This document shows, piece after piece, positions 13,481 to 27,750 of a DNA stretch of 64,000 nucleotides. A program made the position numbers and the translations under genes. The notes below the pieces were generated by a model, which ran no database searches, was not told the origin of the DNA, and saw only the letters and a list, made by a program, of their open reading frames with translations. The first letter of the stretch is position 1. Every line of letters begins with the position of its first letter. The stretch covers positions 62,001 through 126,000 of the forward strand of contig JADLEK010000044.1 of NCBI GenBank assembly GCA_020846135.1. Direction: 5' to 3'. The stretch is from Gammaproteobacteria bacterium. GTDB lineage: Bacteria > Pseudomonadota > Gammaproteobacteria > Competibacterales > Competibacteraceae.

Positions 13481-14167
13481 TCAGGTGCGGGGTCCAAACA
13501 GGGCGGTTCCCACCCGGGTCAGGGTGGCGCCCTCGGCGATGGCGGCTTCCAGATCGTCAGACATTCCCATGGACAAGGTATCCAGCCCCAGTCCGGCGGC
13601 GTTCAACAGGTCCTGCAAGGTTCGCAAACGGGCCAGTGGCTCACGCTGAGCGGTGAAATCAGCCGCCGGGGCCGGAATCGCCATCAGGCCCCGCAGGCGC
13701 AATCGGGGCAATGTCGCCACGGCTGATGCAACCGTAGCGACTTCGCGCTCATCCAGCCCATGTTTGGTCGGCTCCCGGTCGATGTTGACCTGCAGGCAGA
13801 CGTTCAACGGCGGCAGATGGGCGGGCCGCTGGGCGCTCAGCCGCTCAGCGATTTTGAGCCGGTCCACGCTGTGAACCCAGGCGAAATGCTCGGCGATACT
13901 CCGGGTCTTGTTGGCCTGGATCGGTCCGATAAAGTGCCATTCCAGATCCAGCGCCGCCAGCTCCGCTATTTTATCCAAGGCTTCCTGCACATAGTTTTCG
14001 CCAAACCGGCGCTGACCGACAGCGGCAAGGGCGGCGATGGCGGCGGACGGTTGGGTTTTGCTGACCGCCAGCAATTGCACCGATCCCGGCAGGCGCTGGA
14101 AGCGTTGCTCGGCGGCGCGAATCCGGGCCAGCACGAGATGGAGGCGGTCGGCGAAATCAGTATTCAT
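13481..14167 (-). CDS. yggS: YggS/PLPBP family pyridoxal phosphate homeostasis protein
   Basis: PLP-binding TIM-barrel protein that maintains vitamin B6 and amino acid pools; no enzymatic activity is known. The PLP lysine lies in LLAVSKTQP, followed by FGENYVQEALDK, EWHFIGPIQANK and the C-terminal SMGMSDDLEAAIAEGATLTRVGTALFG phosphate-binding region. Start chosen at ATG 14167 (MNTDFADRL), which fits the family N-terminus; an upstream ATG at 14206 adds 13 unusual residues. Divergent from pilT, a classic gammaproteobacterial arrangement. Confidence 0.94.
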   Translation of the reverse strand: MNTDFADRLHLVLARIRAAEQRFQRLPGSVQLLAVSKTQPSAAIAALAAVGQRRFGENYVQEALDKIAELAALDLEWHFIGPIQANKTRSIAEHFAWVHSVDRLKIAERLSAQRPAHLPPLNVCLQVNIDREPTKHGLDEREVATVASAVATLPRLRLRGLMAIPAPAADFTAQREPLARLRTLQDLLNAAGLGLDTLSMGMSDDLEAAIAEGATLTRVGTALFGPRT

Positions 14168-14281
14168 ACGAATGGCGTTCCCAGCGGGTTGATGAACGGT
14201 GATCACGAGGTTGCGCTATATACTATGGGAAAATCCGGCCTACCGGATCGCCTACCACCTGTTTTCCCAGGAGCAACCCCC

Positions 14282-15328
14282 ATGAATCTTGATGAGCTGC
14301 TGACCTTTTCCGTGCAACAAAAAGCCTCGGACTTGCATCTTTCGGCGGGTTTGCCGCCGATGATTCGAGTAGACGGCGATATGCGTAAAATCAACGTCCC
14401 GCCGCTGGAACATAAGCAGGTACATGCGTTGATTTACGACATTATGAATGACAAGCAGCGCAAGGATTATGACGAGTTTCTGGAGTGCGATTTCTCGTTT
14501 GAGATTCCCAAGCTGGCCCGGTTCCGGGTTAATGCGTTCAACCAGAATCGCGGTGCGGCGGGGGTATTTCGCACCATTCCGACCCAGATTCTGACGCTGG
14601 AGGATCTAGGCTGTCCAGCGGTGTTCCGGGATCTGGTCGATGCGCCGCGCGGGCTGATTCTGGTGACCGGCCCGACCGGTTCCGGCAAATCGACGACCCT
14701 GGCGGCGATGATCGACTACGTCAACAAGAACGAATACGGCCACATTCTGACCATTGAAGACCCCATCGAATTTGTTCACACCACTCAACGCTGTCTGGTC
14801 AACCAGCGCGAAGTTCACCGCGACACACTGGGATTCACCGAGGCGCTGCGTTCAGCGTTGCGCGAAGACCCGGACATCATTCTGGTCGGCGAAATGCGCG
14901 ACCGGGAAACCATCAGCCTGGCGCTGACCGCCGCCGAGACTGGACATCTGGTGTTCGGCACCCTGCACACCAGTTCCGCACCCAAGACCATCGACCGGAT
15001 CATTGACGTGTTCCCGGCGGGCGAAAAGCCGATGGTGCGCTCCATGCTCTCGGAGTCGCTGCGCGCGGTGATTTCGCAGGCGTTGCTGAAAAAGAAAGGC
15101 GGCGGACGAGTCGCAGCGCATGAGATCATGGTCGGCGTTCCCGCCATCCGCAATCTGATCCGCGAGGACAAGGTGGCGCAGATGTACTCCTCCATTCAGA
15201 CCGGTTCCGGTTACGGGATGCAAACCCTGGATCAATGCCTGCTGGAATTGATCAAGAAAGGGATAGTCACCCGTGAGGAAGCCACTTCTTACGCCCAGAA
15301 CAAGGCATCGTTCAAGGCGCAGGGTTAG
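14282..15328 (+). CDS. pilT: type IV pilus retraction ATPase PilT
   Basis: Hexameric ATPase that depolymerises type IV pili for twitching motility. It has 348 residues. N-terminal domain with ASDLHLSAGLPP; Walker A GPTGSGKST at residues 130-138; Asp box with TIEDPIEFVH; Walker B DIILVGEMRD; His box GTLHTSSAPKTIDRIID; and the PilT-type AIRNLIREDK (AIRNLIRE) motif needed for retraction. ATG 14282 has AGGAG nine bases upstream; the frame extends far upstream through yggS antisense, which is not used. It works with the FimX-like c-di-GMP receptor encoded nearby (inference). Confidence 0.97.
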   Translation: MNLDELLTFSVQQKASDLHLSAGLPPMIRVDGDMRKINVPPLEHKQVHALIYDIMNDKQRKDYDEFLECDFSFEIPKLARFRVNAFNQNRGAAGVFRTIPTQILTLEDLGCPAVFRDLVDAPRGLILVTGPTGSGKSTTLAAMIDYVNKNEYGHILTIEDPIEFVHTTQRCLVNQREVHRDTLGFTEALRSALREDPDIILVGEMRDRETISLALTAAETGHLVFGTLHTSSAPKTIDRIIDVFPAGEKPMVRSMLSESLRAVISQALLKKKGGGRVAAHEIMVGVPAIRNLIREDKVAQMYSSIQTGSGYGMQTLDQCLLELIKKGIVTREEATSYAQNKASFKAQG

Positions 15329-15369: not shown

Positions 15370-18300
15370 ATGATGGCTCATGATCCTCATCAAACCGTGG
15401 CAACGGTTTCCCCAACCCCGCTAACGCCCCGTCAGATCGTCGAACACGCTTTGGCGCATCTCGATCATCTGTTGCCCGCCCAGGCGCCGATCCTGAATTT
15501 CGTCCATCACAACACCCTGCACGGTTATCAGCATTTGCCGTTTGAACAGGCGCTGGCTGCCGTTGAGCAACTCACCGGGATTCACGCTTATTTGCCCGAT
15601 GCAGCGTTTCGCAACCTCTATCAGGCCGGACGAATAACCGACGCCGATCTGGATGCGGTATTTGCCCAGCGTCCGGCGCTGGCGGCGGAAACATTGTTAG
15701 TCGCGATAGGCCAGCGGACGATTCAGCGCGGCGACGTACTGCGAATTTCGCTGATCCACGGGGTCGAGGCGCTGTCACTGAATCAACTGGTCTGGCAGAT
15801 GGAAGAACTCAATGCCACCGGTCAGTTTCAGTGTGATGTCCCGGAGCCGATGCGGCAACGCTTGCTGGATGCGGCGTGGCGCGACGGGTTGACCAATGCC
15901 GGCGCGGCGCTGGAAGACCTGTGGCGAGCCTGTCTGGAAGGATTCCAGTTGCCGGCGTTCACCCTGCATCCCGAAGAGCTGGTGGATTTGCAACTGAACC
16001 TGGCGAAGTCGCTACTGGCCCGGTTTCGGGGGGCCGACGCGACAGAAGACGGCCCGACGGTTCATAAACGAATGCAGACCGAAAGTGTGGCCTTGCTGGA
16101 AGGGCTGTTGGCCGAAGTGGGCGACCGGATCACCTTGCGTGGGTTGTTGCGGGCGCTGACCGGGCAGGACTGGTTCGATCAGGTGCGCCCGGAGTTGATC
16201 CGGCTGGCCGCCGCGCATCTTGATGAGGGACTAGCTGCCTGGAATCTGCCGGATCGAAGCGCCGGTTTGTATGTGGCGTGGCGACGACTGACGGAAGCAG
16301 ACCCGGCCTGGACTTTCGCCGGATTGCCCGAAGACCCGCTGACCGCAATCAGCGCCGAATTGCAGCGCCTTGGTCTGCCGGAATCGCGCTGGGACGGCTA
16401 TCTGACCCGGCTGGCGCTGGAACTGCCCGGATGGGCGGGGATGATGAACTGGCGACAACACCATCCCGACTATCCGGCCAACCGGCGGACTCCGGTGGCT
16501 TTGGCCGATTGGCTGGCGGTGCGGTTGCATCTCGACCGGGTGCAGCTTGAACGGTTGTGCCGGGAAACCTGGGGCGTGACCGGAACCTTGTCGGCCTTGC
16601 GCGACTATTTCATGGCTCGTCCGGCGGAGGCGCTGATTCGCTATGCCCTACACGAGGGGCGCTTGCCAGAGTATTTAGCCAGCCGGGCGCGAGCCTTGAT
16701 CGAGGGAGGCATCGCGCCTTCCGGGTTTTCTCTCCCACCGACGGGTGCCGGAAGCAAAGCGGCTTGGGACCTGCTGGCCGACATGATCTGGACCTGGCGG
16801 CATAGCCCGGTAGCGACTGATCCGGGAACCCATACCGTGCATGGCAGCGCCTGGCGGCTGTTTCGGCTGGCGCAACATCTGGGCCTGTCCGGCGGCGAAC
16901 TGCGGACGCTGACTCCCACCGATCTGGAACGGTTGCTGGCGGTCGTGGACGAGTTGCCCGCTGCCCGTCGTGGCGCGATCTGGCAGTCCGCGTATGAACA
17001 TCATTACCGCACGGCGCTGATTAACGCCTTGGCCAATAATCGCGGGCGCTGGAGCCAGACTGACGACCGGCCATCAGCGCAAGTGGTGTTCTGCATTGAC
17101 GACCGTGAGGAAGGCTTCCGTCGCCATCTGGAGGAGCTGAACCCACGGATTGAGACCTTGGGCGCCGCCGGCTTTTTCGGGGTCGCGATGAACTGGCGGG
17201 GACTGGATGACCGCACCGTGACGCCGTTGTGCCCGGTGGTAGTGACGCCGGTTCACGAAGTCCGGGAAGTGGCCCGGCCTGAAACCGAAATGCTGCATCT
17301 TCACCGTAACCAGCGCCGCGCCTGGCGCGACCGGTGGCGGGCGCTGTATCAGGAAATTCGCCGCAATCTGCTGTCCTCGGCGCTGCTGATCGATCCGCTG
17401 GCCCTAGGCGTGTTGCCGACCTTGGCCGGTAAAGTATTCACGCCCAACCGGCAAGGGCAACTCGCTGAAACCGCTGCGGCATGGCTGGTTCCTGATGCGC
17501 CCACTCAGGTTGCGATCACTGCGGTTGATGACCACGCCCCGGCGACTCCGGAGCAGTCGCGCCTCGGTTTCACTGACGCGGAACAGGCGGATCGGGTTGC
17601 TGGGCTGCTCCGCAATCTCGGCTTAACGACCCGCTTTGCGCCGCTGGTAGTGCTGATGGGCCACGGTTCGATGAGTCAGAACAACCCGCATTTGGGCGCT
17701 TACGATTGCGGAGCATGTGGCGGGCGGCATGGCGGACCCAATGCCCGAACCTTTACCGCGATGGCCAATCGTCCCGAAGTGCGGGCGTTGTTGCCGGAAC
17801 GCGGGGTTCAGGTTCCGGTGGATACCTGGTTCGTTGGTGCGGAACATAACACCTGTGATGAGCAGATCGCCTTTTACGACCAGTGCGACTTGCCGGATGC
17901 AGTGCAATCCGCAGTCCGGGAATTGCAACGGGAGCTGGATCGCGCCCGCCAGCTTTCGGCCCATGAACGCTGCCGCCGATTTGCCTCTGCGCCACGCGAT
18001 CCGACTCCAGCCCAGGCGTTGCGTCATGTCGAGGAGCGGGGCCGCGATTTCAGTCAGGCTCGCCCGGAACTTGGTCACGCGACTAATGCCGCCGCATTGG
18101 TCGGGCGGCGCACCATGAGCCGGGGCATATTTCTCGACCGGCGGGCGTTTCTGATCTCCTACGATCCGGCTCAGGACCCGGACGGCAAAGTATTGGAAGG
18201 GATTCTGCTGGCGGTTGGGCCGGTCGGGGCCGGAATTAATCTGGAGTATTACTTTTCCACGGTGAACAACGAGCGACTGGGGTGCGGTACCAAGACTCCG

Positions 18301-18660
18301 CATAATGTCACCGGGCTGTTTGCGGTGATGGAGGGCGCGAGCAGCGATTTGCGCACCGGACTGCCCTGCCAGATGGTTGAGATTCACGAGCCGGTGCGGC
18401 TGCAAATGGTGGTTGAAGCGCGGACGGAGATTCTGGCGGTGATTTATGGGCGGCAAGCCGGATTGCGGGAACTGATCGGCAATGAATGGGTGCAACTGAT
18501 CGCGAAACATCCGGACAGTGGCGAGTTTTCGATTTTCGACCCGGCGCGAGGCTTTGTGCCGTGGACGGGGCCGCTGCAACCGATACCAATTTGCGCCCGA
18601 TCCGGCGACTGGTATCGCGGCCAGACCGATCCATTGCCGCCGGCGCTGATCGACGGTTAA
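15370..18660 (+). CDS. dabA: DabA-type inorganic carbon uptake subunit (DUF2309)
   Basis: Peripheral carbonic-anhydrase-like subunit of the DAB pump, which hydrates CO2 on the cytoplasmic side using cation-motive force. The zinc site can be placed: C575 and D577 in VFCIDDREEGF, H765 in LMGHGS and C780 in YDCGACGG. The H-C spacing of 15 equals that described for Halothiobacillus DabA2. N-terminal FVHHNTLHGYQHLPFE and C-terminal FSTVNNERLGCGTKTPHNV are family blocks. At 1096 residues it belongs to the long DUF2309 forms. ATG at 15373 is also possible and is better spaced from AAAGG. Gene order is dabA before the membrane subunit, the reverse of the described dabB-dabA order. Confidence 0.9.
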   Translation: MMAHDPHQTVATVSPTPLTPRQIVEHALAHLDHLLPAQAPILNFVHHNTLHGYQHLPFEQALAAVEQLTGIHAYLPDAAFRNLYQAGRITDADLDAVFAQRPALAAETLLVAIGQRTIQRGDVLRISLIHGVEALSLNQLVWQMEELNATGQFQCDVPEPMRQRLLDAAWRDGLTNAGAALEDLWRACLEGFQLPAFTLHPEELVDLQLNLAKSLLARFRGADATEDGPTVHKRMQTESVALLEGLLAEVGDRITLRGLLRALTGQDWFDQVRPELIRLAAAHLDEGLAAWNLPDRSAGLYVAWRRLTEADPAWTFAGLPEDPLTAISAELQRLGLPESRWDGYLTRLALELPGWAGMMNWRQHHPDYPANRRTPVALADWLAVRLHLDRVQLERLCRETWGVTGTLSALRDYFMARPAEALIRYALHEGRLPEYLASRARALIEGGIAPSGFSLPPTGAGSKAAWDLLADMIWTWRHSPVATDPGTHTVHGSAWRLFRLAQHLGLSGGELRTLTPTDLERLLAVVDELPAARRGAIWQSAYEHHYRTALINALANNRGRWSQTDDRPSAQVVFCIDDREEGFRRHLEELNPRIETLGAAGFFGVAMNWRGLDDRTVTPLCPVVVTPVHEVREVARPETEMLHLHRNQRRAWRDRWRALYQEIRRNLLSSALLIDPLALGVLPTLAGKVFTPNRQGQLAETAAAWLVPDAPTQVAITAVDDHAPATPEQSRLGFTDAEQADRVAGLLRNLGLTTRFAPLVVLMGHGSMSQNNPHLGAYDCGACGGRHGGPNARTFTAMANRPEVRALLPERGVQVPVDTWFVGAEHNTCDEQIAFYDQCDLPDAVQSAVRELQRELDRARQLSAHERCRRFASAPRDPTPAQALRHVEERGRDFSQARPELGHATNAAALVGRRTMSRGIFLDRRAFLISYDPAQDPDGKVLEGILLAVGPVGAGINLEYYFSTVNNERLGCGTKTPHNVTGLFAVMEGASSDLRTGLPCQMVEIHEPVRLQMVVEARTEILAVIYGRQAGLRELIGNEWVQLIAKHPDSGEFSIFDPARGFVPWTGPLQPIPICARSGDWYRGQTDPLPPALIDG

Positions 18661-18797
18661 CGAGGTTGTCGAAAAGCTCTCTATTGATTTTGAAGCAAAA
18701 TTTAAGGTGGAACCGGCTTCGATCCGGCTGGAAACTGGCCCCACTATGATTATGCAGATCAAATACTTGGTTTTTAGACAGCCTCTGAGAGGCGGCG

Positions 18798-21700
18798 ATG
18801 ACGACAATCATGGTTGAGTGGCTTACTGGTTTTATCCCCGCCCTGCCGTTGGCGGCGGCGCTGGGGATTGGCATTGCCCTGTTAGCCGGGCCAGCGCCGG
18901 GCGAACGCTACGAACGATGCACCAGCCGGATCGCGCTGCTGGCCAGCGCCGGATCGCTGATCGCGGCGTTGGCGCTGATCGCGATCCGACTGACTGGCGA
19001 ATTGCCGGAAACCGTATTGCTGGGAAACTGGCTGCACAGCGGCAGGGTTCAAGTCAGCCTGCTGTTTTTCACCGACCGCCTCAGCCTGACCCTGGCAGCG
19101 CTGACCGGGCTGGCCGGGTTGCTGGCGCTGCGCTTTGCGGTGAACTACATGCACCGGGAACCCGGTTTTCACCGCTTCTTCATGATTCTCAGCCTGTTTA
19201 TCGCGGTGATGCAGGTGCTGGTCATGGCGGGCAACGCCGTTTTAACCTTTGTCGGTTGGGAGGTCGCCGGGCTGTGTTCCTATCTGCTGATCGCCTTTTT
19301 CCCGGATCGACCGGTCGCTGCCGAAAACGCTACCCGAGCCTTTGTCGCCAACCGGATCGGCGACGCCGGGTTCCTGCTCGGCATTGCAGTGGCGTTCTCT
19401 GCGCTGGGCGGGGCCGATTGGACGACGATCAATGCTGGCGCGACCGGGTTAAGCTCGGTGCAAACCGGAATGCTGGCTGGCGGATTCCTGCTGGCGGCCA
19501 TGGCGAAATCGGCGCAGGTTCCCTTTGCCTCGTGGCTGGCGCGGGCGATGGAAGGCCCAACTCCGTCCAGCGCCCTGTTTTACGGGGCAGTGATGGTTCA
19601 CGCCGGAGTCTATCTGCTGCTGCGGCTGCAACCGCTGCTCGAATCATCGCCAACGATCATGGCGCTGATCGCGGCAGTCGGATTAGCGACCGCGCTGTAC
19701 GGTTTTGTCGGCGGCCTGGTGCAAACCGACATCAAAAGCGCCCTGATTTTTTCCACGTCCGGCCAGGTCGGTCTGATGGTGCTGGCCTGCGGCCTCGGAC
19801 TCTGGACCTGGGCGTTGCTGCACCTGTGCGCTCATGCGGCGGTACGCGGCTACCAGTTTTTCAGCGCCCCGTCGATCCTGCGGCAACTAAACGGGGAACG
19901 CGCCCGCCCGGTTCCGACATTTCTGGCCCAGCAACACCGACTCTACGCCGCCGCACTACAGCGGTTCCGGCTGGATGATCTGGCTAATGGGAGTCTGGTT
20001 CGCCCGGTGCAACGACTGGCCCGCGCCCTGGCGCTGTTCGATACTGCGGTAGTGGATCGGGCCACCGGCCTGTCGGTGCCGGCGGTCAATGCGCTGTCCT
20101 CGCTGGCCCAATGGGAAGAACGGCAACTGGGGGCGGGGCGGTTGCTGGAGCGTGGCCCGACCGCGCTGGATGAGGAACAAGGGGTTGTCCGCTGGACAGC
20201 GGAACGGATCGCGACGGCCTTCCATTGGGTCGAAGAACAACTGATTTTCAAAGCCGCCGGGCAGGGGATCGTCGCGGTTAGCCGCCAGTTGGGGCAAGGT
20301 TTAAGCGGGGTGGAGCGGTGGCTGGGCCGATCATGGGTGGGCATGGCGGGGATCGTAACGTTGCTGGCGGCGCTGATCGCCATCGCTGAGCTGCTGCGGA
20401 ATCAGGGTCACGACGGCGCAACCGGTTTTCCGCTATTAAGCACATTGCTGCTGATTCCGCTGTTGGGAATGATTGCGGCCTGGCGGGCGCGGCAGGCCCC
20501 AACCGTGTTTCAAGTGGGACTGGCCGCGACCGGGATAGAGCTGGCGCTGGCGCTTTTTCTACTGGTCCAGTTCGAGCCGAATGTGGCCGGGATCCAGTTG
20601 GTGGAACAGGTCCAGCTTGCGCCGTGGCTGAGTTATCACGTCGGCATCGACGGGCTAAATGTGCTGTTCCTGCCGCTGACCGCCCTGCTCGGCCTGCTGA
20701 TGATGCTTTACGCCGAACCGGAACAGCGGCAACAACCGGGTCGGTTCGTCGCCTGTCTGCTGGCGCAACAGGCGGCGCTGATCGGGATGTTCACCGCGCT
20801 AAACCTGCTGCAATTCTGGCTGTTCGCGCTGGCCGAAATTCTTCCGACGGCCCTGCTGATCCGCTATTGGGGAACCAGTCCAGCCCGGAGTCAGGCCGCC
20901 CGCCATTTCCGTCGCGCCTTGATCAGCGGAACCTTGGCGATTCTAGTGGGAACCCTGCTGATCGGCTGGAACCATGCAGCCCATCACGGCCACTGGTCTT
21001 TCGATTTGCCCGCCTTGCTGGCGATCCCGCTGTCCGCCGGCCAACAGTCGCTGATCTTCATCCTGCTATTCGGCGGGCTAGCGGTGCGCCTGGCGCTGTT
21101 CCCGTTTCACGCCTGGCTGCCGATGGTGGCGCAACACGGCACCGTTGCGGTAGGCATCGTGTTTCTGGTCGGGGCCAAAGTGGGGATTTACGCCCTGCTG
21201 CGCTTCGTCTTCCCGCTGTTGCCCGCCGCCGCTGAGCAATGGGCCGGCTCGATCATGGCGCTGGGGCTGGCCGGGATGCTGTACGGGGCCTTACTGGCGC
21301 TGATGCAGCGTGATTTACGCCGGCTGCTGGCCTTCGCCGTGATCAGCCAGAGCGGGGCATTAGCGGTTGGCCTGTTCTCGCTGAATCCGGCCGGGTTGCG
21401 CGGTGGCCTGCTGCTGGCCCTGAATCTTGGGTTAGCCGCAGCGGGTCTGTTCATGGTCGCCGGCCTGTTGCAGCGCCGGCTGGGTGGAACCCGCTTTTAC
21501 CGGCTGGGCGGACTGTTCGACGCTGCTCCATTGCTGGGCCTGACCTTTCTGGTGGTGGTGCTGGGCAGCATCGCCATGCCGGGCACACCGGGGTTTGAGG
21601 CCGCCCATCTGGCGCTGGAAGGCATTCTGGAAACCGCCGGATGGGGCATCGCCACCCTCGCCGCCGCCGGCAATGTCCTGGCGGCCGGCTATCTGCTGTG

Positions 21701-21935
21701 GGCTTATCAGCGGATTTTTCTGGCGCGCGGCCCGAAGCGCAGAATGCGCTCCCTGACTGATCTGCACCGGCGGGAGCGGATCATGGCCGGGCTGTTGTGC
21801 GCGGTGATGATCGGGGTCGGTTTGTATGCTGATCCGTGGATCAGGATGATCGGCAGGGCCGTCGATGAAGTATCGCAACGGCTAGAGGCGCATCCGGGCA
21901 GTAAGCACCTAGCGCCGCCCGTTGCGCTGCCCTGA
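18798..21935 (+). CDS. DabB-like proton/cation-conducting subunit: NuoL-like and NuoM-like halves fused
   Basis: A 1045-residue polytopic membrane protein made of two complex-I antiporter-like modules. The first (about 1-530) is NuoL/DabB-like, with E155 in FVGWEVAGLCSYLL, K237 in AMAKSAQVPF, EGPTPSSALFYGAVMVHAGVYLL, and a NuoL-style C-terminal amphipathic region. The second (about 535-1020) is NuoM-like, with E680 in ALAEILPTALL, FPFHAWLPMVAQHG, and K794 in GAKVGIYALLRF. Both halves keep the Glu/Lys pair of proton-translocating subunits. Ordinary DabB has only one module of about 500-560 residues. It follows dabA by 137 bp on the same strand, so it is the likely membrane partner. Confidence 0.85.
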   Translation: MTTIMVEWLTGFIPALPLAAALGIGIALLAGPAPGERYERCTSRIALLASAGSLIAALALIAIRLTGELPETVLLGNWLHSGRVQVSLLFFTDRLSLTLAALTGLAGLLALRFAVNYMHREPGFHRFFMILSLFIAVMQVLVMAGNAVLTFVGWEVAGLCSYLLIAFFPDRPVAAENATRAFVANRIGDAGFLLGIAVAFSALGGADWTTINAGATGLSSVQTGMLAGGFLLAAMAKSAQVPFASWLARAMEGPTPSSALFYGAVMVHAGVYLLLRLQPLLESSPTIMALIAAVGLATALYGFVGGLVQTDIKSALIFSTSGQVGLMVLACGLGLWTWALLHLCAHAAVRGYQFFSAPSILRQLNGERARPVPTFLAQQHRLYAAALQRFRLDDLANGSLVRPVQRLARALALFDTAVVDRATGLSVPAVNALSSLAQWEERQLGAGRLLERGPTALDEEQGVVRWTAERIATAFHWVEEQLIFKAAGQGIVAVSRQLGQGLSGVERWLGRSWVGMAGIVTLLAALIAIAELLRNQGHDGATGFPLLSTLLLIPLLGMIAAWRARQAPTVFQVGLAATGIELALALFLLVQFEPNVAGIQLVEQVQLAPWLSYHVGIDGLNVLFLPLTALLGLLMMLYAEPEQRQQPGRFVACLLAQQAALIGMFTALNLLQFWLFALAEILPTALLIRYWGTSPARSQAARHFRRALISGTLAILVGTLLIGWNHAAHHGHWSFDLPALLAIPLSAGQQSLIFILLFGGLAVRLALFPFHAWLPMVAQHGTVAVGIVFLVGAKVGIYALLRFVFPLLPAAAEQWAGSIMALGLAGMLYGALLALMQRDLRRLLAFAVISQSGALAVGLFSLNPAGLRGGLLLALNLGLAAAGLFMVAGLLQRRLGGTRFYRLGGLFDAAPLLGLTFLVVVLGSIAMPGTPGFEAAHLALEGILETAGWGIATLAAAGNVLAAGYLLWAYQRIFLARGPKRRMRSLTDLHRRERIMAGLLCAVMIGVGLYADPWIRMIGRAVDEVSQRLEAHPGSKHLAPPVALP

Positions 21936-21990: not shown

Positions 21991-22117
21991 GCCACGCCCG
22001 ATGCTGCAAATTGTGGTTTCATGGTACGATTCCCCGTATCGCAATGCCGCATTTCAGCCGCCGGGACGTCCAGCCGGATCCTGGCCACTAGAACAAAGTA
22101 CTCCGGGGAACCACCGA

Positions 22118-23401
22118 ATGATCATTTATAACCTTTTTCCCTTGCTGGCTGGTCCGTGCGGGGATTGGGAGCCACACCTGAAACGGGCCGCCGACATGGG
22201 TTTCGACTGGATTTTCGTCAATCCGGTGCAAAAACCTGGCTACTCAGGCAGTCTGTACTCCATTGTCGACTATTTTGAGTTGAATCCGCTGCTGGCCGAT
22301 CCTCAGTCCAAGCTATCCCCGGAACAGCAGATGCAGGCCGCACTGGCCGCCGCCGAAAAACTGGGCCTCAAGGTAATGGTCGATTTGGTCATCAACCATT
22401 GCGCCTTCGACTCGAAACTGATTAGCCAGCATCCCGAATGGTTTGTGCGTGAAGGCGACGGCAGCGTCGCCCACCCATTCTGCATGGAAGACGGGCACAA
22501 GGTGGTCTGGGGCGATCTGGCCAGCTTCAATCATCAGCACACCCCCGACCCTGAAGGGCTGTACCGCTACTTCTACCAGATCGTCGAATACCTGCTGAAG
22601 CTCGGCTTCAAGGGTTTCCGTTGCGATGCCGCCTATCAACTGCCGGGCCATGTCTGGAGCCGCCTGATTCGCGAAATCCGCCAGAAATATCCCGATACCC
22701 TGTTCACCGCTGAAACCCTGGGCTGTACCGCCGACCAGACCAAGCAGACCGCCCAGGCGGGCTTTGATTACGTCTTCAACAGTTCCAAGTGGTGGGATTT
22801 CAACGGCGCATGGTTGATGGAGCAATACCAACTGGTGCGCGAGATCGCCCCGTCGATCAGCTTCCCCGAAAGTCACGACACCGATCGCCTGTTCCAGGAA
22901 GTCCATGGCAACGAGGCGGCGATGAAGCAGCGCTACCTGTTTTCCGCGCTGTTCTCCGCTGGAGTGATGGCGCCGATGGGCTTCGAGTATGGCTTCCGCC
23001 GCCGCTTGCATGTGGTGAATACCCGCCCCGGCGACTGGGAGCAGCCCAATATCGACCTGTGCGAGTTCATCACCCAGGTCAACGCCGTCAAGCGCCGGCA
23101 TCCCATTTTTCAGGAGGAATGCCCGACCAGCATCCTGCCCTACCAGAACCCCAACATTCTGGTGATGTGGAAGGCTTCGACCAAGACCCACGAAGAAGCG
23201 CTGGTGATCCTGAACAAGGATCCTTGGAATCACCAGTACTTCCATGCTGAAAATCTGAGCACCTATATTCAGGCCGGCGCGCCGCTGATGGATGTGTCGC
23301 CCGAGTACCCGCTCGAGTACATCCCGCGCCCGTTTTCCTATGACTTGCGGCCCGGCCAAGCCTTCGTTATGGTCACCAGCCGCGATCATCTGCCGCACTA
23401 G
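22118..23401 (+). CDS. GH13 alpha-amylase-family enzyme, GlgE-like
   Basis: Alpha-glucan-active (beta/alpha)8 enzyme, 427 residues from ATG 22118 (GGGGAA eight bases upstream; a longer frame from 22001 is rejected). Visible: KVMVDLVINHCA (beta3), nucleophile Asp in GFRCDAAYQ (beta4), acid/base Glu in LFTAETLG (beta5) and SFPESHDTDR (beta7, HD pair). The VINHCAFDSKLISQHPEWFVREGDG segment and overall layout recall maltosyltransferase GlgE more than a secreted amylase; no signal peptide is present. As first gene of a cluster with glgA and two GH57 enzymes, it likely makes or remodels glycogen. Substrate is not settled by sequence alone. Confidence 0.8.
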   Translation: MIIYNLFPLLAGPCGDWEPHLKRAADMGFDWIFVNPVQKPGYSGSLYSIVDYFELNPLLADPQSKLSPEQQMQAALAAAEKLGLKVMVDLVINHCAFDSKLISQHPEWFVREGDGSVAHPFCMEDGHKVVWGDLASFNHQHTPDPEGLYRYFYQIVEYLLKLGFKGFRCDAAYQLPGHVWSRLIREIRQKYPDTLFTAETLGCTADQTKQTAQAGFDYVFNSSKWWDFNGAWLMEQYQLVREIAPSISFPESHDTDRLFQEVHGNEAAMKQRYLFSALFSAGVMAPMGFEYGFRRRLHVVNTRPGDWEQPNIDLCEFITQVNAVKRRHPIFQEECPTSILPYQNPNILVMWKASTKTHEEALVILNKDPWNHQYFHAENLSTYIQAGAPLMDVSPEYPLEYIPRPFSYDLRPGQAFVMVTSRDHLPH

Positions 23402-23485
23402 ACCCCAGGGCGCCATCTGGACCCGCCCGGCGAAGGGGGGCCAGATCGCCATGCCCGGCATCTGAAATAAGGACGGGAGACATTA

Positions 23486-24958
23486 ATGTATATTGTGCAG
23501 ATTGCTTCTGAATGCGCCCCGGTGGCGAAAGTCGGCGGTCTGGCCGACGTGATCTTCGGCCTGAGCCGGGAACTGGAAATTCGTGGCAACGAAGTCCACA
23601 TCATCCTGCCCAAGTATGACTGCATGCGCTATGACCAGATCTGGGGGCTGCAAGTCAGCATCCGGGATCTGTGGGTGCCGTGGTACAACGGCGCAGTGCA
23701 TTGTTCAGTCTGGTTCGGCTTTGTTCACGGCCGCAAGTGCTTTTTTATTGAGCCGCATTCGCAGGATAACTTCTTCAATCGCGGCCATTTTTACGGCTTT
23801 CAGGATGATGTCAGCCGCTTTGCCTTTTTCAGCAAAGCCGCCATGGAATTCATGCTCAAGGACAACCGTCGCCCGGACATTATTCATTGCCACGACTGGC
23901 AAACCGGGCTGATTCCGGTCCTGCTGTTTGAGCAGTACGCCCATGCCGGAATGCACTGGCAACGGGTCTGCTATACCATTCACAACTTCAAACATCAGGG
24001 CCTGACCGGCGAATACGCGCTGTGGGCTACTGGCCTGACCAATATCAGCCACTATTTCAATTTCGACCGACTGCGCGACAACTACAACCACACTGCCGTT
24101 AATCTGATGAAGGGAGGAATTGTCTATTCCAACTTCGTCACCACGGTGTCGCCGACCCATGCTCATGAAGCCCGCTTTACTGATCAGGGCAGTGGGCTGG
24201 CGCCGGTGCTGAATCTGCATCAAAGCAAGTTCGGCGGCGTACTGAATGGCATTGATTATGATATCTGGAACCCGGAAGTAGATCCGCACATTCCCAGTCG
24301 CTATGGGATTGAAACGCTGGATCAGAAGTATGCCAATAAAGACGCACTGCGGGATCGGCTGTGGTTGAGTAAAGAGTTCAAGCCGATCATTGCCTATGTC
24401 GGACGACTGGATAGCCAAAAAGGCGTCAATCTGCTGCATCACGCCATCTTTTATGCGCTGCGCAATAATGCCCAGTTTGTGCTGCTGGGTTCCAGTCCGG
24501 AACCGCACACCAATCAGCATTTCTGGAATCTCAAGCGCCATCTCAACGACAGCCCGGATTGCCATCTGGAGCTGGGTTTTGACGAAGAATTATCTCACCT
24601 GATTTACGCCGGGGCAGACATGATCATCATGCCCAGCCTGTTTGAACCCTGCGGCCTGACGCAAATGATCGCGCTGAAATACGGCACGGTACCGATTGTG
24701 CGCGAGGTCGGTGGTCTCAAGGACACGGTGTTCGACAAGGACTATTCGCACAAGCCGTTTGAGGAGCGCAATGGCTATGTGTTCCAGGGCGCTGATAACG
24801 CCGGCATCGAGTCCGCCATGCATCGCGCGATTGCCTTGTGGTTCGCCTATCCTGACGATTTCCGCCGCCTGATGATTCACGGCATGACCTGTGATTATTC
24901 ATGGTGCCGGCCCGGTCAGGATTATCTCAATATTTACGAACATATCCGTTCCAAATAA
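23486..24958 (+). CDS. glgA: glycogen synthase (GT5)
   Basis: Adds glucosyl units from ADP- or UDP-glucose to the growing alpha-1,4 chain. It is 490 residues long, typical for GT5. Nucleotide-sugar motif KVGGLADV is at residues 15-22; DIIHCHDWQTGLIPVLL, YVGRLDSQKGVNLL and MPSLFEPCGLTQMIALKYGTVPIVREVGG are the GT5 C-terminal donor-site blocks. GGGAG stands seven bases before ATG 23486. The 84-bp gap after the GH13 gene contains a hairpin (GGCG...ATCTGG with CCAGATCGCC), consistent with an operon with intercistronic structure. Confidence 0.95.
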   Translation: MYIVQIASECAPVAKVGGLADVIFGLSRELEIRGNEVHIILPKYDCMRYDQIWGLQVSIRDLWVPWYNGAVHCSVWFGFVHGRKCFFIEPHSQDNFFNRGHFYGFQDDVSRFAFFSKAAMEFMLKDNRRPDIIHCHDWQTGLIPVLLFEQYAHAGMHWQRVCYTIHNFKHQGLTGEYALWATGLTNISHYFNFDRLRDNYNHTAVNLMKGGIVYSNFVTTVSPTHAHEARFTDQGSGLAPVLNLHQSKFGGVLNGIDYDIWNPEVDPHIPSRYGIETLDQKYANKDALRDRLWLSKEFKPIIAYVGRLDSQKGVNLLHHAIFYALRNNAQFVLLGSSPEPHTNQHFWNLKRHLNDSPDCHLELGFDEELSHLIYAGADMIIMPSLFEPCGLTQMIALKYGTVPIVREVGGLKDTVFDKDYSHKPFEERNGYVFQGADNAGIESAMHRAIALWFAYPDDFRRLMIHGMTCDYSWCRPGQDYLNIYEHIRSK

Positions 24959-24990
24959 GCCTTGCCATTGCCAAAGGAGAACGCTTCGCC

Positions 24991-26454
24991 ATGAGTCAGC
25001 TTCCCGAATACGTCGACGGTTTACCGAACATCTGCGGTTCGGAATCCCTCGTGGAAAAAACCCTGCTTGCCCATCGCGGCCAGCCGGTGTTTCTGCCCGA
25101 AAGCCGGATTGATTTCAGTAAAATCCGCGCGGCCTGCGCTATTGCCCTGCACATGCATCAACCGCTGATTCCGGCCGGCGGCGGCGATTTGTCGACTGCG
25201 GCAATCATCAGCAATCTCAAGTACATGATGGATAACCAAGGCATTGGCGATAATTACAATGCCCCGGTTTTTCACTGGTGCTACAAGCGCATGGGTGAGT
25301 TCCTCCCGCAACTGATTAACGAGGGCAAGGAACCGCGAGTGATGCTGGAATACTCTGGAACCCTGTTCCACGGCTTGCGGGCGATGGGCTTAAATGACGT
25401 CTTCGACGCGCTTAAAAACGCGACCTGCAATCCGGATTACCGGCGGGCGGTGGAATGGCTCGGTTGTCCGTGGGGTCATGCGGTGGCGCCGTCGACCCCG
25501 ACTCAGGATTTCCGGCTGCATGTCAAAGCCTGGCAACACCATTTTGCGGCTATTTTTGGGTTAGAGGCTTTGGCGCGAGTGCGCGGTTTCTCGCCGTCGG
25601 AAATGGCGTTGCCCAATCATCCCGATATTGCCTATGCCTACATCAAGACCCTGGTGGACTGCGGTTATCAATGGCTGCTAGTGCAGGAACACACCGTCGA
25701 ACGCCCGGAAAATGGCTGGGGACCGGAGAAAAAGCATCTCCCGCACCGGCTGGTTTGCACCAATTCCAAGGGCGAAACGGTCAGCATTATCGCTATTATC
25801 AAGACTCAGGGCAGCGACACTAAACTGGTCGCGCAAATGCAGCCGTATTACGAAGCCAAGAGTCTGTCGCGCTGGGAACTGGCTGGAAAATCAGTGCCGC
25901 CCCTGGTCACTCAAGTGGCTGATGGCGAGAACGGCGGGGTGATGATGAATGAGTTCCCCGGCAAGTTCTTTGATTCGGTCAACGAGGCTTCCGGCTCCGA
26001 TACGGTGTTTATGAACGCCACCGAATATCTGGAACATTTGTTTGCGTCCGGGGTGAAAGAAGCCGATTTGCCAACCCTGCAACCGTTATTCCAGAAGCGA
26101 ATCTGGGATCGGTTCAAGCCAGGCGACGGGCCAGAGAAGCTGGAAAAAGTCATTGCCGAATTGAAGCAGGAAGATGGACGATTTCACATGGAAGGCGGTA
26201 GCTGGACCAATGATATTTCTTGGGTACAGGGTTATGACAACGTCCTCGGCCCGATGGAAAAAGCCAGCGCAGTCTTTTACGAGAAGATCCTGAAACCAGG
26301 CATTGCGCCCAGCGATCCACGCTATCGGAATGCGCTGTTTCACCTGATGAGTTCGCAAACCAGTTGTTACCGGTATTGGGGACAGGGTCTGTGGACCGAC
26401 TACGGTCGTGAAATCTGCCGGCGGGCCGCGCATATCGCTGAAACCGATTTTTAG
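24991..26454 (+). CDS. glycoside hydrolase family 57 enzyme
   Basis: 487 residues from ATG 24991, with AAAGGAGA upstream; a frame from 24901 overlaps glgA and is not used. GH57 signatures: N-terminal HQP (residues 56-58, ALHMHQPLIPAGG), a Glu in GFSPSEMALPN at the nucleophile position, and Asp in VADGENGGVMM at the acid/base position. The family includes amylases, branching enzymes and 4-alpha-glucanotransferases; exact activity cannot be read from this. The C-terminal part is helical (SCYRYWGQGLW). Second GH57 follows 108 bp later, suggesting a pair acting on the same glucan. Confidence 0.85.
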   Translation: MSQLPEYVDGLPNICGSESLVEKTLLAHRGQPVFLPESRIDFSKIRAACAIALHMHQPLIPAGGGDLSTAAIISNLKYMMDNQGIGDNYNAPVFHWCYKRMGEFLPQLINEGKEPRVMLEYSGTLFHGLRAMGLNDVFDALKNATCNPDYRRAVEWLGCPWGHAVAPSTPTQDFRLHVKAWQHHFAAIFGLEALARVRGFSPSEMALPNHPDIAYAYIKTLVDCGYQWLLVQEHTVERPENGWGPEKKHLPHRLVCTNSKGETVSIIAIIKTQGSDTKLVAQMQPYYEAKSLSRWELAGKSVPPLVTQVADGENGGVMMNEFPGKFFDSVNEASGSDTVFMNATEYLEHLFASGVKEADLPTLQPLFQKRIWDRFKPGDGPEKLEKVIAELKQEDGRFHMEGGSWTNDISWVQGYDNVLGPMEKASAVFYEKILKPGIAPSDPRYRNALFHLMSSQTSCYRYWGQGLWTDYGREICRRAAHIAETDF

Positions 26455-26562
26455 CCGGTTGGGCTATTCCTGATTCCGGCATGCTCACTAAAAATAATCA
26501 GGGTGGCAGTCAGGGCGGCGCTCATCCCGCTGCCCGTTGAAGTTGCCACAGGAGGCTGAATT

Positions 26563-27750
26563 ATGGCGGACACCCTTTACCACGCGCTGGTGCTGAATCT
26601 GCACCAGCCGCACGGCAATCTGGAACATCTGCTGGAACATAATGAATGGGAGGCTCGGGAGATCCTGTTTGCAATGGATCGGATTCCCCGAGCGCTGGCT
26701 GATTATCAGGACGTTGGCCGGGTGCATCTGGCGCTGTCCGGCACCCTGCTCGAAACTCTGATCAATGCCGATTTTCAAAGCCGGGCTTACGGAATGACTG
26801 ACTGTGGGGCATTGCTCTGGCAGTTACGCAATACCCAGGTCATTGATATGCTCGGTACGGCTTATTATCACCCGGTCATGCCGCTGATTCCGCCGGCGGA
26901 CTGGGAAGCACAGATGGATCGGTGGCGAGGCATTGCGCGCCGCCAGTTCTATCACAGCGATTTTCAGGGCTTCTGGCCACCGGAAATGGGCTTCTGCATG
27001 GAAATGATTCCGCTGTTGCGGCGCAGCGGTTACCGCTTTGTGCTGGTGGACTGCGAGCATGTCCAGCCGGTTACGCCAATGCGCTGGGAACAGTTGCGTT
27101 ATCAGCCGCATATCGCCCGCTTTGGCGGGGAAGAAATCATCGTTATTGTCCGCGACCGCGAACTGTCGAATGCGCAGGAATCCGGGATGGAATTTGCGTG
27201 GTTTGACCGGGAAGTGCGGGAGCGGACCAAGATCTGCAATTTTCCGGCGCTGGTGACGACCTGCAGCGACGGTCAAAACGGCGGCTGGTTCCGCAATGCT
27301 ACGCCGGGCAGCAATTTCTGGGATGTGTTCTACAAGCCGTTAATGGAACAGGCGCGGGGCGGTGGTCATGCGATCCAGCCGACCTTCATCAAGACTTATC
27401 TCGACCAGTTCGGGGCAACAGGCGAAGTCACGGTCGGGCCGGGAGCATGGAATACCGGCTGGCATAACGGCCACGATTTTGTGCAATGGTCCGGATCGGC
27501 GGCGCAGAAAGATGCCTTGACCCGGGTGGGCGAAGTCAGTCAGGCTGTGCATGGCTCGTTGCACAACGCCACCCATATCGGCTCGCGCAACCCGGAACTG
27601 CTGGGCTTACTGGAAGAAGCGCGCTGGCGGGTGCTGCGGGCTGAAACCAGTTGCCATTTCTTCTGGGGCGACGCTTGGGTGATGCGCTGCCACTCCGATC
27701 TGGATCAAGCCTGCGAGTGTCTGGATCGGGCTAACGCCTGTTTTAACTGA
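26563..27750 (+). CDS. glycoside hydrolase family 57 enzyme (second, shorter copy)
   Basis: 395 residues, starting after a strong AGGAGG site. HQP at residues 14-16 (LNLHQPHGN), nucleophile Glu141 in GFWPPEMGF and acid/base Asp236 in TTCSDGQNGGWF. It is about 90 residues shorter than the preceding GH57 and differs at the motifs (PPEMGF versus SPSEMAL), so the two probably have different specificities. The C-terminal helical SCHFFWGDAW resembles the SCYRYWGQGLW of its neighbour. Last gene of the glycogen operon; a hairpin terminator follows. Confidence 0.85.
   Translation: MADTLYHALVLNLHQPHGNLEHLLEHNEWEAREILFAMDRIPRALADYQDVGRVHLALSGTLLETLINADFQSRAYGMTDCGALLWQLRNTQVIDMLGTAYYHPVMPLIPPADWEAQMDRWRGIARRQFYHSDFQGFWPPEMGFCMEMIPLLRRSGYRFVLVDCEHVQPVTPMRWEQLRYQPHIARFGGEEIIVIVRDRELSNAQESGMEFAWFDREVRERTKICNFPALVTTCSDGQNGGWFRNATPGSNFWDVFYKPLMEQARGGGHAIQPTFIKTYLDQFGATGEVTVGPGAWNTGWHNGHDFVQWSGSAAQKDALTRVGEVSQAVHGSLHNATHIGSRNPELLGLLEEARWRVLRAETSCHFFWGDAWVMRCHSDLDQACECLDRANACFN

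Follow-up and report, generated by a model that had tools for sequence, protein, structure and literature searches.

The 64,000-nucleotide stretch of DNA analysed here (the window), from a wastewater bacterium, holds a gene for the zinc subunit DabA and a gene for a 1045-residue membrane protein, the sole adjacent pair of this system in it. The initial annotation took them for a two-gene inorganic-carbon pump. In the solved DAB2 complex two subunits suffice, and proton-driven CO2 hydration is supported (PMC13144422). We wondered whether DabA and the fused protein form such a pump on their own or belong to a larger assembly.

Both genes are intact in the list of open reading frames (Table 1). 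Of the named relatives, Candidatus Competibacteraceae rank best, Ca. Contendobacter among them. The genome contains one dabA, twelve PF00361 stretches and two β-carbonic anhydrases, and the search for a RuBisCO large subunit returned no match in it. A plasmid search yielded distant DUF2309 proteins only, none with 80% query coverage. Upstream of dabA lies a T2SSE/PilT-type ATPase (13760-15328), whose true start is probably downstream of the first listed start codon. Just 3′ of the fusion gene, a GH13/amylase-like protein (22001-23401, Pfam) starts a glycogen-type cluster (22001-27750) whose further reading frames (23486-24958, 24901-26454 and 26563-27750) resemble, judged by eye, a glycogen synthase and GH57-type enzymes; this fits a glycogen-accumulating organism.

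Table 1 Positions of the two genes and of the features discussed, numbered along the window.
Feature	Position	Strand	Detail
dabA, clade C type, β-carbonic-anhydrase-like zinc subunit	15370..18660	+	1096 aa
C575-I-D577-D-R579: zinc Cys and Asp-Arg dyad	17092..17106	+	DabA2 alignment
Two “finger” helices, residues 640-690	17287..17439	+	AF2 helices 640-665, 671-690
D675, at the DabA2 Glu444 position	17392-17394	+	DabA alignment
H765 and C780, other zinc ligands	17662..17709	+	align with DabA2 H524/C539, invariant
H903, at the DabA2 Leu658 position	18076..18078	+	DabA alignment
Gap between dabA and fused gene	18661..18797		137 nt, gene-free
L-M2 fusion gene	18798..21935	+	1045 aa; two PF00361 stretches
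L module, residues 1-530, DabB orthologue	18798..20387	+	first half-channel, no TM12-15
Non-membrane helices replacing TM12-15, residues 370-512	19905..20333	+	hydropathy, AF2 (low confidence)
Fusion junction, L anchor helix / M2 first helix	20385..20435	+	separate L ends and M2 starts align here
M2 module, residues 545-1035, NuoM fold	20430..21902	+	structure match, residue alignment

The fused membrane protein

The N-terminal half of the fused protein is NuoL-like and the C-terminal half NuoM-like. Over their full length, residues 1-530 align with complete stand-alone genes for a DabB/NuoL-like subunit (L), and residues 545-1035 with complete stand-alone genes for a NuoM-like subunit (M2): the protein is L joined to M2, which are encoded by separate genes in almost all relatives. 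The initial annotation had read the membrane protein of this DAB-family system as a NuoL-NuoM fusion, and had suggested that it may join a NuoM-like subunit that is separate in other pumps; the two PF00361 stretches, the nature of the halves and the separate M2 genes elsewhere agree with both proposals.

The fused form occurs at nine of the 80 loci in our genome collection, and also at locus L059. All nine belong to the Competibacteraceae branch of DabA, where identity to the window’s protein is about 70% or higher and most genomes bear a Competibacteraceae name; no L-M2 fusion was seen among the more distant relatives in the 80 loci. Because most relatives encode the two halves separately, a merge of two genes by sequencing or assembly was considered, as the initial annotation had advised for the region near nucleotide 20400. 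We rule it out as having a negligible chance: independent genomes carry the fusion, and codon-position composition is steady across the junction. Nor are DAB homologues all about 1000 residues long, the other caveat raised, since DabB of other types has about 550 residues. Longer membrane proteins were met elsewhere: two gammaproteobacterial DAB loci (L095 and L096) encode a DabB-like protein of about 745 residues, longer than usual, ahead of a DabA of 753-813 residues, and a PF00361 frame of at least 903 residues (L114, G000:C53 about 34381) lies beside its genome’s own complex-I-type L/M genes.

The L module retains the residues of the first half-channel (E155, R186, D189, K237, K313, H342 and H346), with E155/K237 corresponding to the NuoL-type pair (NuoL E144/K229). 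The ion-pair Glu (DabB2 Ile151, NuoL E144) is Glu in 31 of 33 L sequences, whereas this position has His or Phe in DabB1 and Ile, Val or Leu in DabB2. By hydropathy, L is without membrane helices at about residues 362-513, where DabB1 and DabB2 have four and NuoL has five; after the H343 position, L shows a single hydrophobic peak, DabB1 and DabB2 show four, and NuoL shows five. AF2 places helices at residues 390-422, 427-444, 463-485 and 490-509 of this segment, with pLDDT mostly under 60. At this low model confidence, residues 370-512 could possibly form a long lateral (HL-like) element.

The M2 module has the NuoM fold. A VIA-align search with the model of the fused protein matched M2 to E. 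coli NuoM (PDB code 3rko_C; Z 53.4, 486 residues, 1.7 Å), and as NuoM matches to the C-terminal half filled the list, the structural match covers M2 only. At the canonical NuoM positions M2 has L678 (Glu), R764 (TM7 Lys), K794 (central Lys) and A936 (TM12 Glu), so that of the four residues the central Lys alone is kept and an Arg occupies the TM7 Lys position. Two full antiporter-like modules, each with its Glu/Lys pair, had been proposed. The fold of the C-terminal half and the pair of the N-terminal half stand, but L keeps the first half-channel without TM12-15, and E680/K794 is not the canonical pair: E680 misses the position of the canonical Glu by two residues, and K794 corresponds to the central Lys, not the TM7 Lys.

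The zinc subunit

DabA matches PF10070 with 847 bits (cut-off 25) and the solved DabA2 (PDB code 9rd0_A) with E 4.8e-78. The zinc site is complete, as had been noted from the sequence, with C575, D577, H765 and C780 aligning exactly with DabA2 C351, D353, H524 and C539; the Asp-Arg dyad is present too (D577/R579, corresponding to D353/R355). The DabA alignment has the zinc ligands and the dyad kept clade-wide. With a PF10070 DabA, zinc ligands and dyad, and an adjacent PF00361 DabB-type subunit all present, the system belongs to the DAB/DAC family; we take it for the branch called clade C. In the tree this DabA clade stands apart from the DAB1, DAB2 and short types with a support of 1.0.

The AF2 model of DabA (mean pLDDT 76) brought β-carbonic anhydrases to the top of a second search, VIA-align 2, with CsoSCA best at Z 8.2. 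Carboxysomal and other β-carbonic anhydrases lead with Z 8.2 to 6.0; such values are modest alone, but the top five rows are all one family and are in line with the DabA2 match by sequence. The 9rd0 structure is absent from this ranking, which probably reflects a release date later than the library cut-off of April 2026. Foldseek of the same model against the PDB gave no significant match (best E 0.058).

We compared residues in 76 clade sequences with those in 22 sequences of the DAB1, DAB2 and short types. The position of DabA2 Glu444, a finger residue essential in DAB2 (PMC13144422), has Glu in 1 of 76 clade members versus 22 of 22 others. The position of DabA2 Leu658 has His throughout the clade (76/76) and Leu throughout the others (22/22). 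This leucine, called strictly conserved among 150 homologues, takes the place of the Gln/His of β-carbonic anhydrases, and the low basal activity of DAB2 is linked to it; several substitutions are tolerated in vivo (PMC13144422), so the His alone need not alter function. The clade also carries the signature DDREE, with E580 where DabA2 has S356. Coupling in DAB2 has been tied to Glu444, to Leu658 and to the lost ion pair (PMC13144422). The clade departs from DAB2 in all three, so that conclusions on its direction or substrate drawn from DAB2 may be unreliable.

A five-gene operon with four antiporter-like modules

At 52 of the 80 collection loci the genes form a five-gene operon, M1-dabA-L-M2-M3, in which M1 and M3 encode further antiporter-like modules. 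Eight of ten loci drawn from across the phylum, mostly outside the window’s class, have the same operon. Spacing is nearly nil (median 8, -0.5, -4 and -4 nt), and the tight operon contains PF00361 and DabA genes only, with no redox or other complex I subunits. Hosts include methanotrophs, ammonia oxidisers, symbionts and members of a second class: Methylobacter, Methylomonas, Nitrosospira, Nitrosomonas, Nitrosovibrio, lucinid and Lamellibrachia symbionts, and Sulfurimicrobium. In Ca. Competibacter phosphatis, a single genome, M1 and DabA share one 1646-codon frame (L053 2675-7612, the same as L128); it retains the start Met of DabA internally.

The tree groups L with DabB1 and DabB2, next to NuoL, the L half being sister to DabB1/DabB2. 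M1, M2 and M3 are three clades inside the NuoM group, so M3 is read as NuoM-like, not NuoN-like. The canonical Glu, TM7 Lys, central Lys and TM12 Glu are complete in all M1 (17/17) and M3 (15/15) sequences. The window’s genome has both modules on other contigs, unlinked to dabA (M1 at L204:8106-9590, M3 at L205:7870-9408), and these cluster with their operon counterparts in the tree.

The operons rule out a two-gene system as the normal form of the clade, and the two-gene reading of the window gives way to one with four antiporter-like modules, two of them kept elsewhere in the genome. The dabA-first order, which had been taken as unusual, is normal in the clade and was reported in 2017: in the operons that a COGNAT survey assigned to clade C of YbcC/COG3002, ybcC (dabA) precedes a nuoL homologue, and NuoM and SulP genes are present as well (PMC5700660). 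For the L-M2 fusion and the residue differences we found no description in the literature searched, though the DAB papers of Desmarais 2019, Scott and Mangiapia may hold an earlier description of the clade. Our searches likewise found no experimental test of any clade member. The undescribed part looks to be the departures of the clade from the solved DAB2 complex.

The genes around these modules fit inorganic-carbon handling. M3 of the window’s genome sits between a bestrophin-like gene and a β-carbonic anhydrase; a β-carbonic anhydrase and a SulP gene come after the operon of Methylomonas LW13, and the operon of Nitrosospira NpAV has SbtA and a CsoSCA-like carbonic anhydrase gene on its flanks. 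A second DAB pair adjoins the operon in some methanotrophs and in Nitrosomonas mobilis (L165 3316-7820, L189 3199-7676 and L200 18772-23226), with a DabA of about 860 residues and a longer DabB of about 625-635 residues, dabA coming first along its own strand in all three.

Coupling, alternatives and known systems

We consider it fairly probable that the clade encodes a vectorial CO2 hydratase that is driven by protons, has a complex-I-like arm of four modules and is coupled otherwise than DAB2. For assembly, proton route, direction and substrate we infer the following scheme. M1, M2 and M3 would associate physically with DabA, as the operons and gene fusions suggest. DabA would hydrate CO2 to bicarbonate in the cytoplasm, and proton entry through L, M1, M2 and M3 would power this reaction and make it one-way. 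The main route for protons would probably be M1 and M3, with their complete NuoM Glu-Lys-Lys-Glu path, and energy would move sideways through M2 and L, with its interface ion pair kept, to DabA, as in complex I. A proton exit between DabA and L of the DAB2 type is unlikely because both TM12-15 and the finger glutamate are lost. In Competibacteraceae, L-M2 as one polypeptide would fix the ratio and neighbourhood of the two modules, M1 and M3 coming from other loci in the window’s genome. The bicarbonate would feed carboxylases in the window’s organism and the Calvin cycle in autotrophic relatives.

DabA and the fused protein might instead form the whole pump; each CO2 would then go with two ion translocation events. 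The two genes are the only ones adjacent in the window, and DAB2 functions with two subunits. We nevertheless think this unlikely: M1 and M3 belong to the clade-wide operon and are retained in the window’s genome, an M1-DabA fusion exists, M2 has lost canonical proton-path residues, and L is without TM12-15.

Two further readings keep the array and change its direction or its ion. An exergonic DabA reaction could drive outward pumping of several ions, as was proposed for YbcC operons before DAB pumps were characterised, the number of membrane genes being tied to the ions moved (PMC5700660). The complex-I ion pair of L and the complete pump-type residues of M1 and M3 would suit such a pump, and with His at the canonical β-carbonic anhydrase Gln/His position the clade DabA may be less latent than DabA2. 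Yet CO2/bicarbonate interconversion yields little energy, the tight operon has no redox or other energy-yielding partner, the surrounding inorganic-carbon genes fit uptake, and the nearest tested relative is proton-driven, so we judge outward pumping distinctly unlikely. Alternatively, the system could take up bicarbonate coupled to sodium, a mode of action argued for one protein pair of the wider family, MpsAB of Staphylococcus aureus (PMC13144422, introduction). DAB2, however, shows no sodium dependence (PMC13144422), and M1 and M3 keep the NuoM-type proton-path Lys and Glu, although sequence cannot reveal ion choice; we regard this reading as very unlikely.

Within the proton-driven hydratase that we favour, a more specific picture can be put forward tentatively: a non-redox relative of the complex I arm whose four modules, two of them fused in Competibacteraceae, would drive a carbonic-anhydrase-like subunit by lateral coupling with several protons per CO2. 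It would do so with none of the three marks of DAB2, the finger glutamate, TM12-15 of DabB and the active-site leucine. The published DAB2 mechanism relies on the finger glutamate and the rebuilt DabB helices, and low basal activity is linked to the leucine; a widespread branch of the family has none of these and brings in further modules whose proton-path residues are complete. Two natural designs make the coupling model directly testable by comparison. The branch may show a complex-I-type arm operating without redox chemistry, and could provide a higher-force bicarbonate pump for engineering.

Compared with DAB2 of Halothiobacillus neapolitanus (DabA2-DabB2, PDB code 9rd0), the clade shares the zinc ligands, the Asp-Arg dyad, the β-carbonic-anhydrase-like fold and the finger helices, and its L, the orthologue of DabB, retains most residues of the first half-channel. 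It differs in that L is without TM12-15, which hold the finger in DabB2, and DabA without a conserved Glu444, with DabA2 Leu658 replaced by His and Ser356 by Glu. In L, Glu stands for DabB2 Ile151, so that the ion pair is kept, Tyr for H260 and Arg for K347. The clade also adds three NuoM-like modules, its dabA precedes L, and the window’s DabA is longer (1096 versus 870 residues).

As far as its description goes, clade C of YbcC/COG3002 is the same branch, with the gene order and NuoM genes met here; that account, in the part that treats this clade, gives no function or residue analysis and does not mention the L-M2 fusion, the M1-DabA fusion or the scattered M1 and M3 of Competibacteraceae (PMC5700660). 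PF00361-PF10070 fusions had been noted in 2015 (PMC4633670).

The complex I arm (NuoL/M/N) resembles the clade’s one NuoL-like and three NuoM-like modules, with the ion pair in L and complete NuoM residues in M1 and M3. The operon differs from it by having no redox or other complex I subunits, a carbonic-anhydrase-like soluble partner and an L without TM12-15. Cyanobacterial NDH-1MS is driven by ferredoxin oxidation, and its CO2-hydrating subunit is not DabA. As proposed for the clade system, NDH-1MS joins an antiporter-like arm to a CO2-hydrating subunit (PMC13144422, introduction), whereas the clade operon has no redox subunits.
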